From Chloroflexota bacterium (GTDB lineage: Bacteria; Chloroflexota; UBA6077; CF-72): a DNA stretch of 9,358 nucleotides. The notes below the pieces were generated by a model. It saw nothing but the letters and a program-made list of their open reading frames with translations. It was not told where the DNA came from and ran no database searches. Below, piece after piece: positions 5,812 to 9,146 of this stretch; positions within the stretch are counted from its first letter, which is position 1, and the number at the start of each line of letters is the position of its first letter. The stretch covers positions 1 through 9,358 of the forward strand of contig JAFAWJ010000615.1 in the NCBI GenBank assembly GCA_019242065.1, given 5' to 3'. The position numbers and the translations under genes were made by a program.

Positions 5812-6252
5812 GTGGTGAAGGCGCCCGCGGCACGCGTCTTCAGCGTGATCTGTGCGCCCGAGCGGCTGCCCGAGTGGAACGTCTCAGTGGAAAAAGCAAG
5901 CCGCGTGAAGCCCGAGGAGCCGGTCGGCCTCGGCTCGCGGGCGATCATGAGCGGTCGGTTGCTGGGCCAGTCCCTCGAGAGTGAGACGGTTGTCGTCGAA
6001 ATCGACGAGCCAACAGTGTTCGTCACCCGCGCGATCCGCGGGCCACGCCTGACGACACGCTTTTCCCTCGAACCACAGGCAGACGAAGGGGCGGCCGACG
6101 GAACACTGGTACGGGTGGAGGTCACTGGCGACGTGCCAGGCGGCGTGATCGGCGAGCGGCTGGCTGAGGGCTTCCTGCGACGTGAGCTGACCAGCTCGTT
6201 GCAACGGTTGCAAACGCTGGTGGAGGCGGACGGCTCCGAAGCCATCGCTTAA
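5812..6252 (+). CDS. SRPBCC (START/Bet v1-fold) family protein; N-terminus probably extends upstream
   Basis: From GTG 5812 this is a 146-aa soluble protein. It shows the polyketide-cyclase/SRPBCC pattern: a first strand running into KAPAARVFSVICAPERLPEWN, a central antiparallel sheet (residues about 38-105 with GLGSRAIM and FVTRAIRG), and a long C-terminal helix (about 116-140). The fold has a hydrophobic cavity that binds lipids, polyketides or other hydrophobic ligands; the ligand here is unknown. With GTG 5812 the first beta strand is cut short. The frame remains open upstream of it, and the codons from CTG 5791 read MQLTASVVV if CTG initiates. That completes the strand and gives 153 aa. 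No ATG, GTG or TTG occurs in frame in that stretch, so the start is either a rare CTG or the short form. It lies 14-35 bp after the DUF3105 stop and 10 bp before the kinase gene. Confidence 0.8.
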   Translation: MVKAPAARVFSVICAPERLPEWNVSVEKASRVKPEEPVGLGSRAIMSGRLLGQSLESETVVVEIDEPTVFVTRAIRGPRLTTRFSLEPQADEGAADGTLVRVEVTGDVPGGVIGERLAEGFLRRELTSSLQRLQTLVEADGSEAIA

Positions 6253-6262
6253 GCTGAATGAA

Positions 6263-7492
6263 ATGGTGGAAGGCGAGCTGGTCGCCGAGTCGGGGATCTC
6301 CCTGGCGGCGTCCCCGCGTGTCCTGGTCGTCGACGACGAAGAACCGGTCGTGGTCACCGTCGGCGGCATCCTCGAGCTGGACGGCTACGAGGTCATTACC
6401 ACGACGTCCGTCACGCGGGCGCTCGAATTGATCCAGGCCCAGCACTTCGACGTGGTCCTGACCGACCTGCGGATGGACGACGCCGACGGCAGCGACGTCC
6501 TCAAGCACCTGCGCGAGGTGGCCTCCGACGAGACGGCGGCGATCGTGCTGACTGGCTACGCGTCGCTCGACTCCGCGATTCGGGTCCTGCGCCAGGGGGC
6601 GTACGACTATCTGGTAAAGCCGTGCGACGTGCTCGAGCTGCGCGCGACCGTCGCTCGCGCCGTGGAGCGCAGCCGACTGGCCATTCAGCTGCACCACCGC
6701 GTGCGCGACCTGGAGCAGGCGAACGAAACGATTCGTGCCCTGAACCTGGAGCTCGAGGTGCGAGTCGAGCGGGCAACGGCCGAGCTTCGCGAGCAGCTGA
6801 CCGCACGGGACGAGTTCATGTCCACGGTGTCGCACGATCTGAAGACGCCGCTTACCTTTATCAAAGGCATGGCCAGTCTGCGTCGGCGGCGGACGGTTGT
6901 CACACCCGAGAACGAGGCCCTGGTGGATGCGTTTGCGCAGATCGAAGCCAGCGCCGGGCGCATGGCTCAACAGCTCGACGAGCTTGTTGATGCGAGCCGA
7001 CTCGAGGCCGGTCGTGCAATCGAGCTAAGGCGTGTCCCCACCGACCTGATCGAGCTGGCGCGCAACGCCGTGGATCAGCATCAGCAGGCGACCAATCGCC
7101 ACGCGCTGTATGTCTCGACGCAGCTGACTGAACTGGTGGGGACCTGGGATAGCGTGCGTCTGGCGCGTGTGCTCGACAATTTGCTCGACAACGCCGTGAA
7201 GTACAGCCCGCGCGGCGGCACGGTGGAGGTCTGTGTCTGGACCCAGGCGGCCGACGCGACGCTGAGCGTGGCCGACCACGGCGTGGGGATTCCGGAGGCG
7301 GACCTGCCGCACATCTTCGAGCGATTTCGGCGCGGGCGAAACGTCGAGGGCCGCATTCCAGGCTCAGGCATCGGACTGGCGGGCGTGCAGCGGATCGTCG
7401 AGCTGCACGGTGGGACGATGGCGGTCGAGTCTCAGGTCGGCGAGGGGACGAAGTTCACGCTGCGCCTGCCGCTGTCTGGGCGCCCGGCCTGA
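6263..7492 (+). CDS. Soluble hybrid response-regulator receiver/histidine kinase
   Basis: This 409-aa cytosolic signalling protein has no transmembrane segment. The N-terminal receiver domain (about 18-135) has the acidic pair Asp24/Asp25, phospho-acceptor Asp68 in LTDLRM, Thr97 and Lys119 (LVKP). A signalling coiled coil spans about 140-182. The HisKA domain has the phospho-accepting His191 in SHDLKTP. The HATPase_c domain has N-box DNLLDNAVKYS (about 305-315), G1 box DHGVGIP (338-344), an F-box around IFERFRRG and G2 GSGIGL (367-372). All catalytic residues are present, so it should autophosphorylate. The receiver-first order means that another kinase, or its own His191, can probably control it. 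No cognate DNA-binding regulator is adjacent. ATG 6263 follows the SRPBCC stop by 10 bp; no convincing Shine-Dalgarno is seen. It is the last gene of the rhomboid cluster, and the next promoter lies in its last bases and just beyond. Confidence 0.95.
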   Translation: MVEGELVAESGISLAASPRVLVVDDEEPVVVTVGGILELDGYEVITTTSVTRALELIQAQHFDVVLTDLRMDDADGSDVLKHLREVASDETAAIVLTGYASLDSAIRVLRQGAYDYLVKPCDVLELRATVARAVERSRLAIQLHHRVRDLEQANETIRALNLELEVRVERATAELREQLTARDEFMSTVSHDLKTPLTFIKGMASLRRRRTVVTPENEALVDAFAQIEASAGRMAQQLDELVDASRLEAGRAIELRRVPTDLIELARNAVDQHQQATNRHALYVSTQLTELVGTWDSVRLARVLDNLLDNAVKYSPRGGTVEVCVWTQAADATLSVADHGVGIPEADLPHIFERFRRGRNVEGRIPGSGIGLAGVQRIVELHGGTMAVESQVGEGTKFTLRLPLSGRPA

Positions 7493-7498
7493 GCTCGA

Positions 7499-7507
7499 TG
7501 CTATAGT
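7499..7507 (+). promoter_or_regulatory. Extended -10 promoter of the metG leader / small RNA
   Basis: TGC TATAGT at 7499-7507 is a very good extended -10 element (TGn plus TATAGT). It begins 6 bp after the kinase stop. No -35 hexamer is recognisable at 16-18 bp spacing, as is common with extended -10 promoters. The expected transcription start is about 7513-7515, only 3-5 nt before ATG 7518. Confidence 0.6.
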
Positions 7508-7517
7508 TTTGGTCACC

Positions 7518-7589
7518 ATGACAGACGGATTGCGCCACACGACCATGTCGATGCCTCGCGCTCGTCTGTCGCCCTGGACGAACGGCTAA
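7518..7589 (+). CDS. Candidate 23-aa leader peptide with three Met codons
   Basis: ATG 7518 to TAA 7587-7589 encodes 23 residues with Met at positions 1, 10 and 12 (MSM). It starts about 10 nt after a TATAGT -10 box and has no Shine-Dalgarno, so it would be translated as a leaderless or near-leaderless mRNA. Its position ahead of a terminator and the methionyl-tRNA synthetase gene suggests a leader peptide that senses charged tRNA-Met (inference). The other residues (Arg/Thr/Pro mix) match no family. It may also be a chance ORF within a structured RNA, since the same bases form the RNA helices. Confidence 0.3.
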   Translation: MTDGLRHTTMSMPRARLSPWTNG

Positions 7590-7620
7590 GCCGCCCGCGT
7601 CCACACCAGCCGGACGAGCT

Positions 7621-7645
7621 GCCCCGCCTGCGCGGGGCTTTTTGT
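7621..7645 (+). terminator. Intrinsic (Rho-independent) terminator 47 nt before metG
   Basis: The perfect stem GCCCCGC (7621-7627) / GCGGGGC (7632-7638) has a CTGC loop and is followed at once by TTTTT (7639-7643) and GTT. It has the right polarity for + strand transcription. It would end the leader/sRNA and any readthrough from the kinase operon. Because metG has no obvious separate promoter between here and 7692, it may act as a conditional terminator. Confidence 0.85.
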
Positions 7646-7691
7646 TGCCTTCTTTTGCTCGCCATGGCTTCGCCCAGGGAGATCGTCACCC

Positions 7692-9146
7692 GTGTCCTTC
7701 TATCTCACGACACCCATCTACTACGCCAACGACGTGCCGCACATCGGCCACGCGTATGCCACCATCGCCGCCGACGCCATCGCCCGTTATCAGCGGCTCA
7801 AAGGTCAGGACGTGTTCCTGCTGACCGGCACCGACGAGCACGGCATCAATATCGAACGCGTTGCCGCCAGCCACGGCGTCACGCCAGGCGAGCATGTCGA
7901 CCGTGTCGCCGCGCAGTTCCGCGACCTGTGGTCTCGGCTCGACATCAGCTACGACCGCTTCATTCGCACCACCGAACCGGCCCACCATCGCGCGGTATTG
8001 GCGCTGTGGCAGCGGCTGCAGGCCAGCGGCGACCTGTACCGAGACACGTACACGGGCGCGTACTGCGCGAGATGCGAGGCCTACTACCAACCTGACGAGC
8101 TCGACCGTGGCGCGTGTCCGGTGCACGGCCTGGCTTGTGAGACCGTCACGGAGCAGAACTGGTTCTTCCGCCTGTCGCGGTACCAGGATGCGTTGGAACG
8201 ACTGGTGGGCGAGACCGACTTTGTACGGCCCATCGCGCGGCGCAACGAGATCCTGGCCGTCATCCGCGCCGGGCTGCGCGATTTCTCGGTCAGTCGCCGA
8301 CAGGTGCGCTGGGGCGTGCCCGTCCCAGACACCGCCGACGAGGTGATCTACGTGTGGGTGGACGCGCTGGCCAATTACCTGACGGGCGTCGGCTACCCGG
8401 ACGAGCCGGCCACCTTCGACCGCTACTGGCCGGCTGAGCTGCACGTGGTGGGCAAGGAGATCATTCGCTTCCACTGTCTGTACTGGCCGGCGTTGCTGCT
8501 GAGCGCCGGCTTGCCGCTACCGAAGCAGGTCTTCGCCCACGGCTGGCTAACCAAAGACGGCAAGAAAATTTCCAAGACGACGGGCAACACGGTGGATCCC
8601 GGGGAGCTCGCGGCCGAGTTCGGCTCGGACGCCCTGCGCTACCACTTGCTGCGCGCGACGCCCTTCGGTCAGGACAGCGACTACACGCGCGATGCGTTCA
8701 TCAGGCTGTACAACGCGGAGCTGGCCAACGCCTTCGGTAATCTCGTGCAACGAGCGACGGCCCTGGCGAATCGGCACGCCTGTGCGCTGAGCGTCGAAGG
8801 GGTCGAGTCTGCCCCTGAACTCGATCTGCGCGTGCGGTCCTGGCAGGTCGAGTCGTGCGTGACGGCGGCGTTCGAGACGCTGGCGCTGCAGGACGCCGTC
8901 ACAGCCGTCGGCGGTTTTGTGCGTGACGCCAATCGCTACCTGCAGGTGACGGCGCCGTGGGACCTGGCCAGAGCTGGCGATGCGTCACGGCTGGGTGTCG
9001 TGCTGCGTCACGCCCTCGAAGCCGCGCGTCTTGCCGCACGCTGGTACTCGCCAATCATCCCGCGGGCGGCTGCCGAAGCGTCACGGCGCCTGGGCGCGAC
9101 ACCGGTCGAAACCGGGCTGCCGTTGTTCCCGCGCTATTCCTGTTGA
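7692..9146 (+). CDS. metG: Methionyl-tRNA synthetase
   Basis: This class I aminoacyl-tRNA synthetase charges tRNA-Met, including the initiator, in the cytosol. It has 484 aa. The Rossmann fold opens with YLTTPIYYANDVPHIGHAY, with the HIGH motif at 17-20. A single zinc knuckle in the connective domain uses Cys125, Cys128, Cys142 and His145, as in the Thermus-type (one-knuckle) enzymes. VGKEIIRFHCLYWPALL follows at about 253-269. The KMSKS loop appears as KISKT (292-296). The C-terminal anticodon-binding helical domain (about 335-470) has NAELANAFGNLVQR and WDLA. The C-terminal tRNA-binding/dimerisation (Arc1p-like) domain found in longer MetRS is absent, as in the mycobacterial enzyme, so it is probably monomeric. 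GTG 7692 is supported by AGGGAG at 7676-7681 and by the exact family N-terminus. The ATG at 7664 is in another frame. Expression is likely linked to the leader and terminator upstream. Confidence 0.97.
   Translation: MSFYLTTPIYYANDVPHIGHAYATIAADAIARYQRLKGQDVFLLTGTDEHGINIERVAASHGVTPGEHVDRVAAQFRDLWSRLDISYDRFIRTTEPAHHRAVLALWQRLQASGDLYRDTYTGAYCARCEAYYQPDELDRGACPVHGLACETVTEQNWFFRLSRYQDALERLVGETDFVRPIARRNEILAVIRAGLRDFSVSRRQVRWGVPVPDTADEVIYVWVDALANYLTGVGYPDEPATFDRYWPAELHVVGKEIIRFHCLYWPALLLSAGLPLPKQVFAHGWLTKDGKKISKTTGNTVDPGELAAEFGSDALRYHLLRATPFGQDSDYTRDAFIRLYNAELANAFGNLVQRATALANRHACALSVEGVESAPELDLRVRSWQVESCVTAAFETLALQDAVTAVGGFVRDANRYLQVTAPWDLARAGDASRLGVVLRHALEAARLAARWYSPIIPRAAAEASRRLGATPVETGLPLFPRYSC

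Follow-up and report, generated by a model that had tools for sequence, protein, structure and literature searches.

Leader-peptide attenuators of aminoacyl-tRNA synthetase genes are known for pheST in γ-proteobacteria and for trpS and leuS in Streptomyces, as given in PMC1262725, which for the methionine operons of Actinobacteria reports no conserved RNA structure. In the known logic of attenuation, starvation leads to readthrough (PMC1183508 and PMC13236596).

The leader of a methionyl-tRNA synthetase (MetRS) gene, metG, from a Chloroflexota bacterium resembles these three systems as described in PMC1262725, with a short ORF carrying codons for the amino acid of its own synthetase, competing hairpins and an intrinsic terminator. 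It differs from them in the combination of Met codons with metG, in an ORF that appears to be near-leaderless, in its occurrence in another phylum, and in a candidate antiterminator that mostly abuts the terminator instead of overlapping it. The leader is probably a ribosome-mediated, Met-codon leader-peptide transcription attenuator of metG, a reading well supported by comparison, with the direction of the response and the last mechanical step unproven.

As in T-box leaders, a synthetase gene would here be controlled through tRNA charging; unlike in T-box leaders, there is no T-box match at metG and the translated ORF is the likely sensor. Among the titles and opening lines of abstracts of open-access literature on methionine or Chloroflexota cases, a coverage outside which most subscription journals lie, no Met-codon attenuator of metG was found. 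The kind of attenuator is already known, and a methionine/metG case would be added to it. Mycobacterial leaderless short polycysteine ORFs, reportedly described by Canestrari in 2020, are said to act as attenuators, and the metG leader is partly akin to them, in that its ORF lies at or close to the 5′ end and contains codons for the sensed amino acid. Those ORFs are reported to exert translation attenuation on cysteine genes (PMC13236596), and unlike them the metG leader has an intrinsic terminator and precedes a synthetase gene.

The window, which is the whole stretch of 9,358 nucleotides that was analysed, contains a response-regulator/histidine-kinase gene at 6263–7492 (Response_reg, HisKA and HATPase_c domain matches) and metG at 7692–9146 on the forward strand, which starts with GTG and matches TIGR00398 with 443.5 bits (cut-off 336.35). 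The product of 5812–6252, a small protein, matches the polyketide-cyclase fold (PF10604) and, below threshold, the Rv0910 toxin family (27.6 bits against a cut-off of 100).

The −10 box of the leader, TATAGT, lies at 7502–7507 on the forward strand and is preceded by TG at 7499–7500, which makes up the extended −10 sequence TGCTATAGT (7499–7507) already recognized in the original prediction. No good −35 was found, because a two-hexamer promoter scan returned nothing, and the transcription start is predicted at about 7513–7516. The leader ORF (7518–7589, forward strand) begins 10 nt downstream of the −10 box and has 23 codons followed by TAA, with the product MTDGLRHTTMSMPRARLSPWTNG. Of the 22 codons that follow the start just two are Met, a point against the attenuator, and these are the presumed regulatory codons ATG-TCG-ATG (Met10 and Met12) at 7545–7553 on the same strand, 15 and 9 nt upstream of region 2.

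Three segments of the leader can enter alternative helices, all on the forward strand. Region 1, ACAGACGG (7521–7528), pairs with region 2, GCTCGTCTG (7560–7568, within the leader ORF), to form the protector helix 1:2, and region 2 can instead pair with region 3, CGGACGAGC (7611–7619), to form helix 2:3, the candidate antiterminator. Helices 1:2 and 2:3 are mutually exclusive. An inner hairpin at 7574–7603, with the stop codon of the ORF in its loop region, is enclosed by helix 2:3; nested helices of this kind had been foreseen. The intrinsic terminator (7621–7646) consists of a perfect 7-bp GC stem at 7621–7638 and a U tract, as had also been predicted, and the sequence directly 3′ of its hairpin is TTTTTGTT. 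Two terminator-like sites were found in 6800–8200, as opposed to 0.5 expected from shuffles. As read from the sequence, the terminator appears to stand between the leader ORF and metG with no recognizable promoter in between.

The same leader is found ahead of metG in three close relatives, at loci L001, L119 and L002, whose MetG proteins are 84, 73 and 71% identical to that of the window. A covariance model, R1, built from these three leaders and that of the window, was searched against 400 relatives of genome G001 with stricter filters that may lose weak matches, and it matched four genomes: the three training genomes and G231. The G231 match (45.9 bits, with an E value of 2.4e-7 calculated for a single genome; L393 289–450) lies directly upstream of a metG starting at 538, whose product is 45% identical to that of the window over 444 aligned positions. 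In all four further leaders, each directly upstream of a metG, the ORF and its Met codons are preserved along with helix 2:3 and the terminator. L393 has a TANNNT box 9 nt ahead of its first ATG and a 12-bp helix, CTCGTCTGCCGG/CCGGCAGACGAG, separated by one base from a terminator whose stem has 9 bp and is followed by a U tract.

TANNNT boxes are present 7–10 nt upstream of the leader ATG in all five leaders, with the TG missing in L002 and L119, and the interval between terminator and metG has no such box in any of the five, which agrees with the earlier statement that a clear second promoter is lacking. The metG start is GTG in the window, L001, L002 and L119. Because the −10 box, the ORF, the alternative helices and the terminator recur before metG in five leaders, though the upstream neighbour gene of L119 is unlike that of the window (sub-threshold family match only), the attenuator that the original prediction had proposed from the layout is supported; the leader ORF and helix 2:3 had been missed. 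Its view that any mechanism would have to differ from the known one need not hold, as a Met-codon leader peptide fits the known ribosome-mediated kind.

The counterparts of the leader peptide are MTDEVRYLAMSMRCARLSSWTTG in L001, MTDELRVQAMAMPLARLLSA in L002, MSGGSRRVMRMCCARLSVRAADG in L119 and MVAMANRSSRAAMMMRPPRLPVRLTGG in L393, each followed by a stop codon, and the last has M-M-M instead of M-x-M. The internal Met codons are 15 and 9 nt ahead of GCTCGTCTG in the window, L001, L002 and L119, and the distance from the last Met to CTCGTCTG in L393 equals that in the window. The six columns of the Met codons are invariant both in the alignment of four leaders and in that of five. In the stretch from region 1 to region 2, four leaders have 10 invariant columns out of 30, among them all six of the Met codons (P 3.5e-4), and with five leaders the count is 8 of 30, with the Met columns still 6/6 (P 4.7e-5); both P values take columns as independent, and each has one alignment behind it. 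The three start codon columns are likewise invariant in the four leaders. Elsewhere in the four-leader alignment, invariant columns are concentrated in region 2 plus one base (10/10), region 3 (7/8), the terminator (16/18) and the U tract with GCC (9/11), as opposed to 0/10 between the −10 box and ATG, 4/42 between regions 2 and 3 and 6/42 in the spacer before metG. Adding L393 gives 8/10 for region 2, 6/8 for region 3, 12/18 for the terminator and 1/9 for region 1. The TTGCC right after the U tract (7645–7649 in the window) is identical in the four leaders and differs in L393.

Helix 1:2 is paired in 31 of 32 cells in the four leaders, and region 1 is absent from L393. Helix 2:3 and the terminator together are paired in 64 of 64 cells in four leaders and 79 of 80 in five, and the pairing drops to 50% or less when the partners are slid by 1–3 columns. 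There is no double change in helix 2:3 and one in the terminator, which indicates conservation rather than covariation; the covariation score of the five leaders was reached by 108 of 500 shuffles. Both the lack of double changes in helix 2:3 and the absence of region 1 from L393 count against the attenuator. The domain comprising regions 2 and 3 was more stable than nearly all shuffles in all five leaders: of 300 shuffles, 0, 0, 0 and 1 equalled it for the window, L001, L002 and L119, and 1 of 300 did so for L393. The inner hairpin alone was weakly better than shuffles, 15 (window), 29, 11 and 24 of 300 being as stable, and the whole 188-nt stretch was not unusually stable (z −1.06; 27 of 200 shuffles as stable).

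According to the proposed mechanism, RNA polymerase would start a few nucleotides upstream of the leader ATG and a ribosome would translate the 23-codon ORF. When charged Met-tRNA is plentiful, the ribosome would reach the stop codon, region 2 would be covered or back on region 1, and with region 3 free the terminator would end transcription. When charged Met-tRNA is short, the ribosome would stall at Met10, its front edge just short of region 2 and part of region 1 beneath it, which would allow region 2 to pair with region 3. Helix 2:3 would then abut the terminator stem and remove bases able to extend this stem into the U tract, less termination would occur and metG would be made. The direction of this response, from starvation to readthrough, is suggested by the presence of Met codons ahead of a MetRS gene together with the known attenuator logic. 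Shortage of Met-tRNA would also impair initiation at the leader's own ATG, which counts against the attenuator.

Modelled ribosome positions, with transcripts ending in the U tract, gave a probability of helix 2:3 of 0.96, 1.00, 1.00 and 1.00 (window, L001, L002 and L119, in this order throughout) for a ribosome at the first internal Met, 0.03, 0.27, 0.98 and 1.00 without a ribosome, and 0.04, 0.48, 0.00 and 1.00 for a ribosome at the stop codon. The dominance of helix 2:3 without a ribosome in L002 and L119 speaks against the attenuator. By these values the window switches clearly and L001 in part, and the equilibrium folds of L119 show no switch. Longer transcripts with a stalled ribosome kept helix 2:3 in the window (0.82) and L119 (1.00), and the values were 0.01 for L001 and 0.14 for L002. 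With the stalled ribosome placed at the second Met instead, the model gave 0.00 in all four leaders, because the modelled footprint then covers the start of region 2.

In all four leaders the stalled state left the terminator at a probability of 1.00. Its core folds beside helix 2:3 and classical exclusion is therefore not seen; loss of the terminator in this state costs 7.0, 11.1, 8.7 and 11.7 kcal/mol, as compared to 7.2, 6.0, 0.0 and 7.3 kcal/mol once the ribosome is at the stop codon. Helix 2:3 closes 0–1 nt ahead of the terminator stem in all five leaders (1 nt in the window), and it takes two bases of the terminator arm in two of them, the window and L393. The original prediction, which found no antiterminator capturing the GCCCCGC arm, was largely right here, and this is the weak spot of the attenuator. 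A 9-bp helix 7553–7561/7630–7638, which would capture the 3′ arm of the terminator, was seen in the window only, ranking outside the 12 best helices in each of the other three leaders; it was rejected. When free, region 3 is predicted to pair with the U tract in the window and in L001, and in L393 a 13-pair helix joins the two. The abutting helix 2:3 may hinder zipping of the terminator stem in the polymerase exit channel and remove the extension into the U tract. Because helix 2:3 is compatible with the terminator core in the predicted folds and disappears when the stall is modelled at the second Met, antitermination by this helix is unproven.

The full version of the mechanism, in which a Met-codon attenuator senses charged Met-tRNA to switch on a back-up MetRS and antitermination occurs by an abutting helix (0–1 nt) that blocks stem zipping in the exit channel with no terminator arm captured, is possible though doubtful. 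If the attenuator reading is right, leader-peptide attenuation extends to methionine as a sensed amino acid, one enzyme charges the tRNA for the start codon of the leader and for its regulatory codons alike, bacteria with T-boxes at other synthetase genes use the ribosome as the sensor for this MetRS, and the leader is a compact case of antitermination by an abutting helix.

The anatomy would be the same in a leader that senses translation itself through an arrest peptide, with the nascent peptide, a drug or general stalling as the signal and not Met-tRNA, and the peptide pattern M-x-M-x-x-[AP]-R-L is kept in 5/5 leaders. The A/P-R-L part, however, falls on region 2, whose conservation is that of an RNA and extends to third codon positions; outside region 2 it is mainly the Met codons that are conserved, and the gene codes for MetRS, all of which makes an arrest peptide unlikely. 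The invariant start and Met codons also bear on the constitutive small RNA kept as a real alternative in the original prediction, a transcript some 130 nt long, with a promoter and terminator of its own, whose place before metG would be incidental. Its own −10 box, the stable region 2–3 domain beside the terminator and the retention of the terminator in nearly all folded states are what such an RNA would have. It would not explain the invariant codons, all five leaders found precede metG, and none of the five has another −10 box ahead of that gene, which leaves the small RNA with a small chance of being correct.

The leader might alternatively bind a ligand or protein in the manner of a riboswitch (methionine, S-adenosylmethionine or MetRS itself), with a fortuitous ORF. 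Conserved nucleotides in region 2, in region 3 and after the U tract would suit this, but of the 42 columns that separate regions 2 and 3 most are variable (4/42 being invariant), which leaves no conserved ligand pocket in view, and there is no Rfam match, so that this reading is very improbable. The Rfam scan of the window gave no family at gathering score, with nine sub-threshold matches of E 0.56 or worse to unrelated families; the T-box family RF00230 was unmatched, in agreement with the original prediction. L393 likewise had no match at gathering score, and L081, L082 and L119 had none up to E 1. Translational control, by which the leader would hide the Shine–Dalgarno sequence of metG in the read-through mRNA, has in its favour a 10-bp perfect complement in L002 that only 2 of 500 shuffled leaders equal. 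Among the window, L001, L002 and L119 such sequestration is clear in L002 only, as 80 (L001), 139 (window) and 460 (L119) of 500 shuffles do as well, and it is the sort of explanation that would be a surprise here.

Models R1 and R2 run over other metG loci gave weak matches only; the two best (E 0.12 and 0.13) were to the leaders read on the opposite strand, and the next had E 0.15. A search of six genomes for the pattern CTCGTCTG...AGACGAG gave the three metG leaders and three other places. The pattern ACAGACG...ATGNCNATG was discarded, having matches in 47 of 201 genomes, hitting the leader only on the metG contigs of G001 and G002 and missing G003. The ATGNNNATGNNNNNNGCTCGTCTG pattern is present in 88 of 400 genomes with up to one mismatch; four matches are exact, three of them in metG leaders, and the fourth, in G364, spans a long coding frame and was taken as chance. 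On a 36-row MetG tree, two changes are required to account for the five rows that bear the leader, of which four make up one clade and L393 groups with L143; the distribution may reflect descent with losses, leader transfer or convergence.

L143 (1283–1393, genome G052), the sister of L393 in the MetG tree, has upstream of metG an ORF, MTRHAPCAGFVRLSLAAPRTLSPMAMPCPWRLSRAG, which ends in SPMAMPCPWRLSRAG before its stop, together with a TGCCCCTGG/CCAGGGGCA pair and without a U tract. By its sequence this may be a diverged form of the leader, and it is a lead only. In another Chloroflexota MetG group (L140, L142, L141/L342 and L343), regions with no evident leader ORF carry a −10-like box upstream of metG and, within a few tens of nucleotides, a terminator-like hairpin with U's just before the gene.

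The genomes G001, G002 and G003 each also encode another type of MetRS, which shares 100, 89 and 88% identity, in that order, with the query from G001 and has PRK00133 as its best model on the part tested, below the cut-off. Among 61 genomes (G001 and 60 relatives), the window-type MetRS was found in 30 (E 1e-80) and the other type in 34 (E 1e-60); five have both (G001, G002, G003, G049, and G052 with a partial match) and two have neither. Since both types are present in G001–G003 and the next 13 genomes, G004–G016, have the other type alone, the leader-controlled metG looks like an additional synthetase in this clade, within the limits set by gaps in the metagenome-assembled genomes and by the thresholds. 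G001–G003 have 13 T-box matches at E 0.001, one of them above gathering score, and none is on a metG contig. Five of the T-box matches are on contigs adjoining PF00587 or PF00579 synthetase matches, and others, as read from translations, precede acetolactate synthase and an Asp/Asn-type synthetase.
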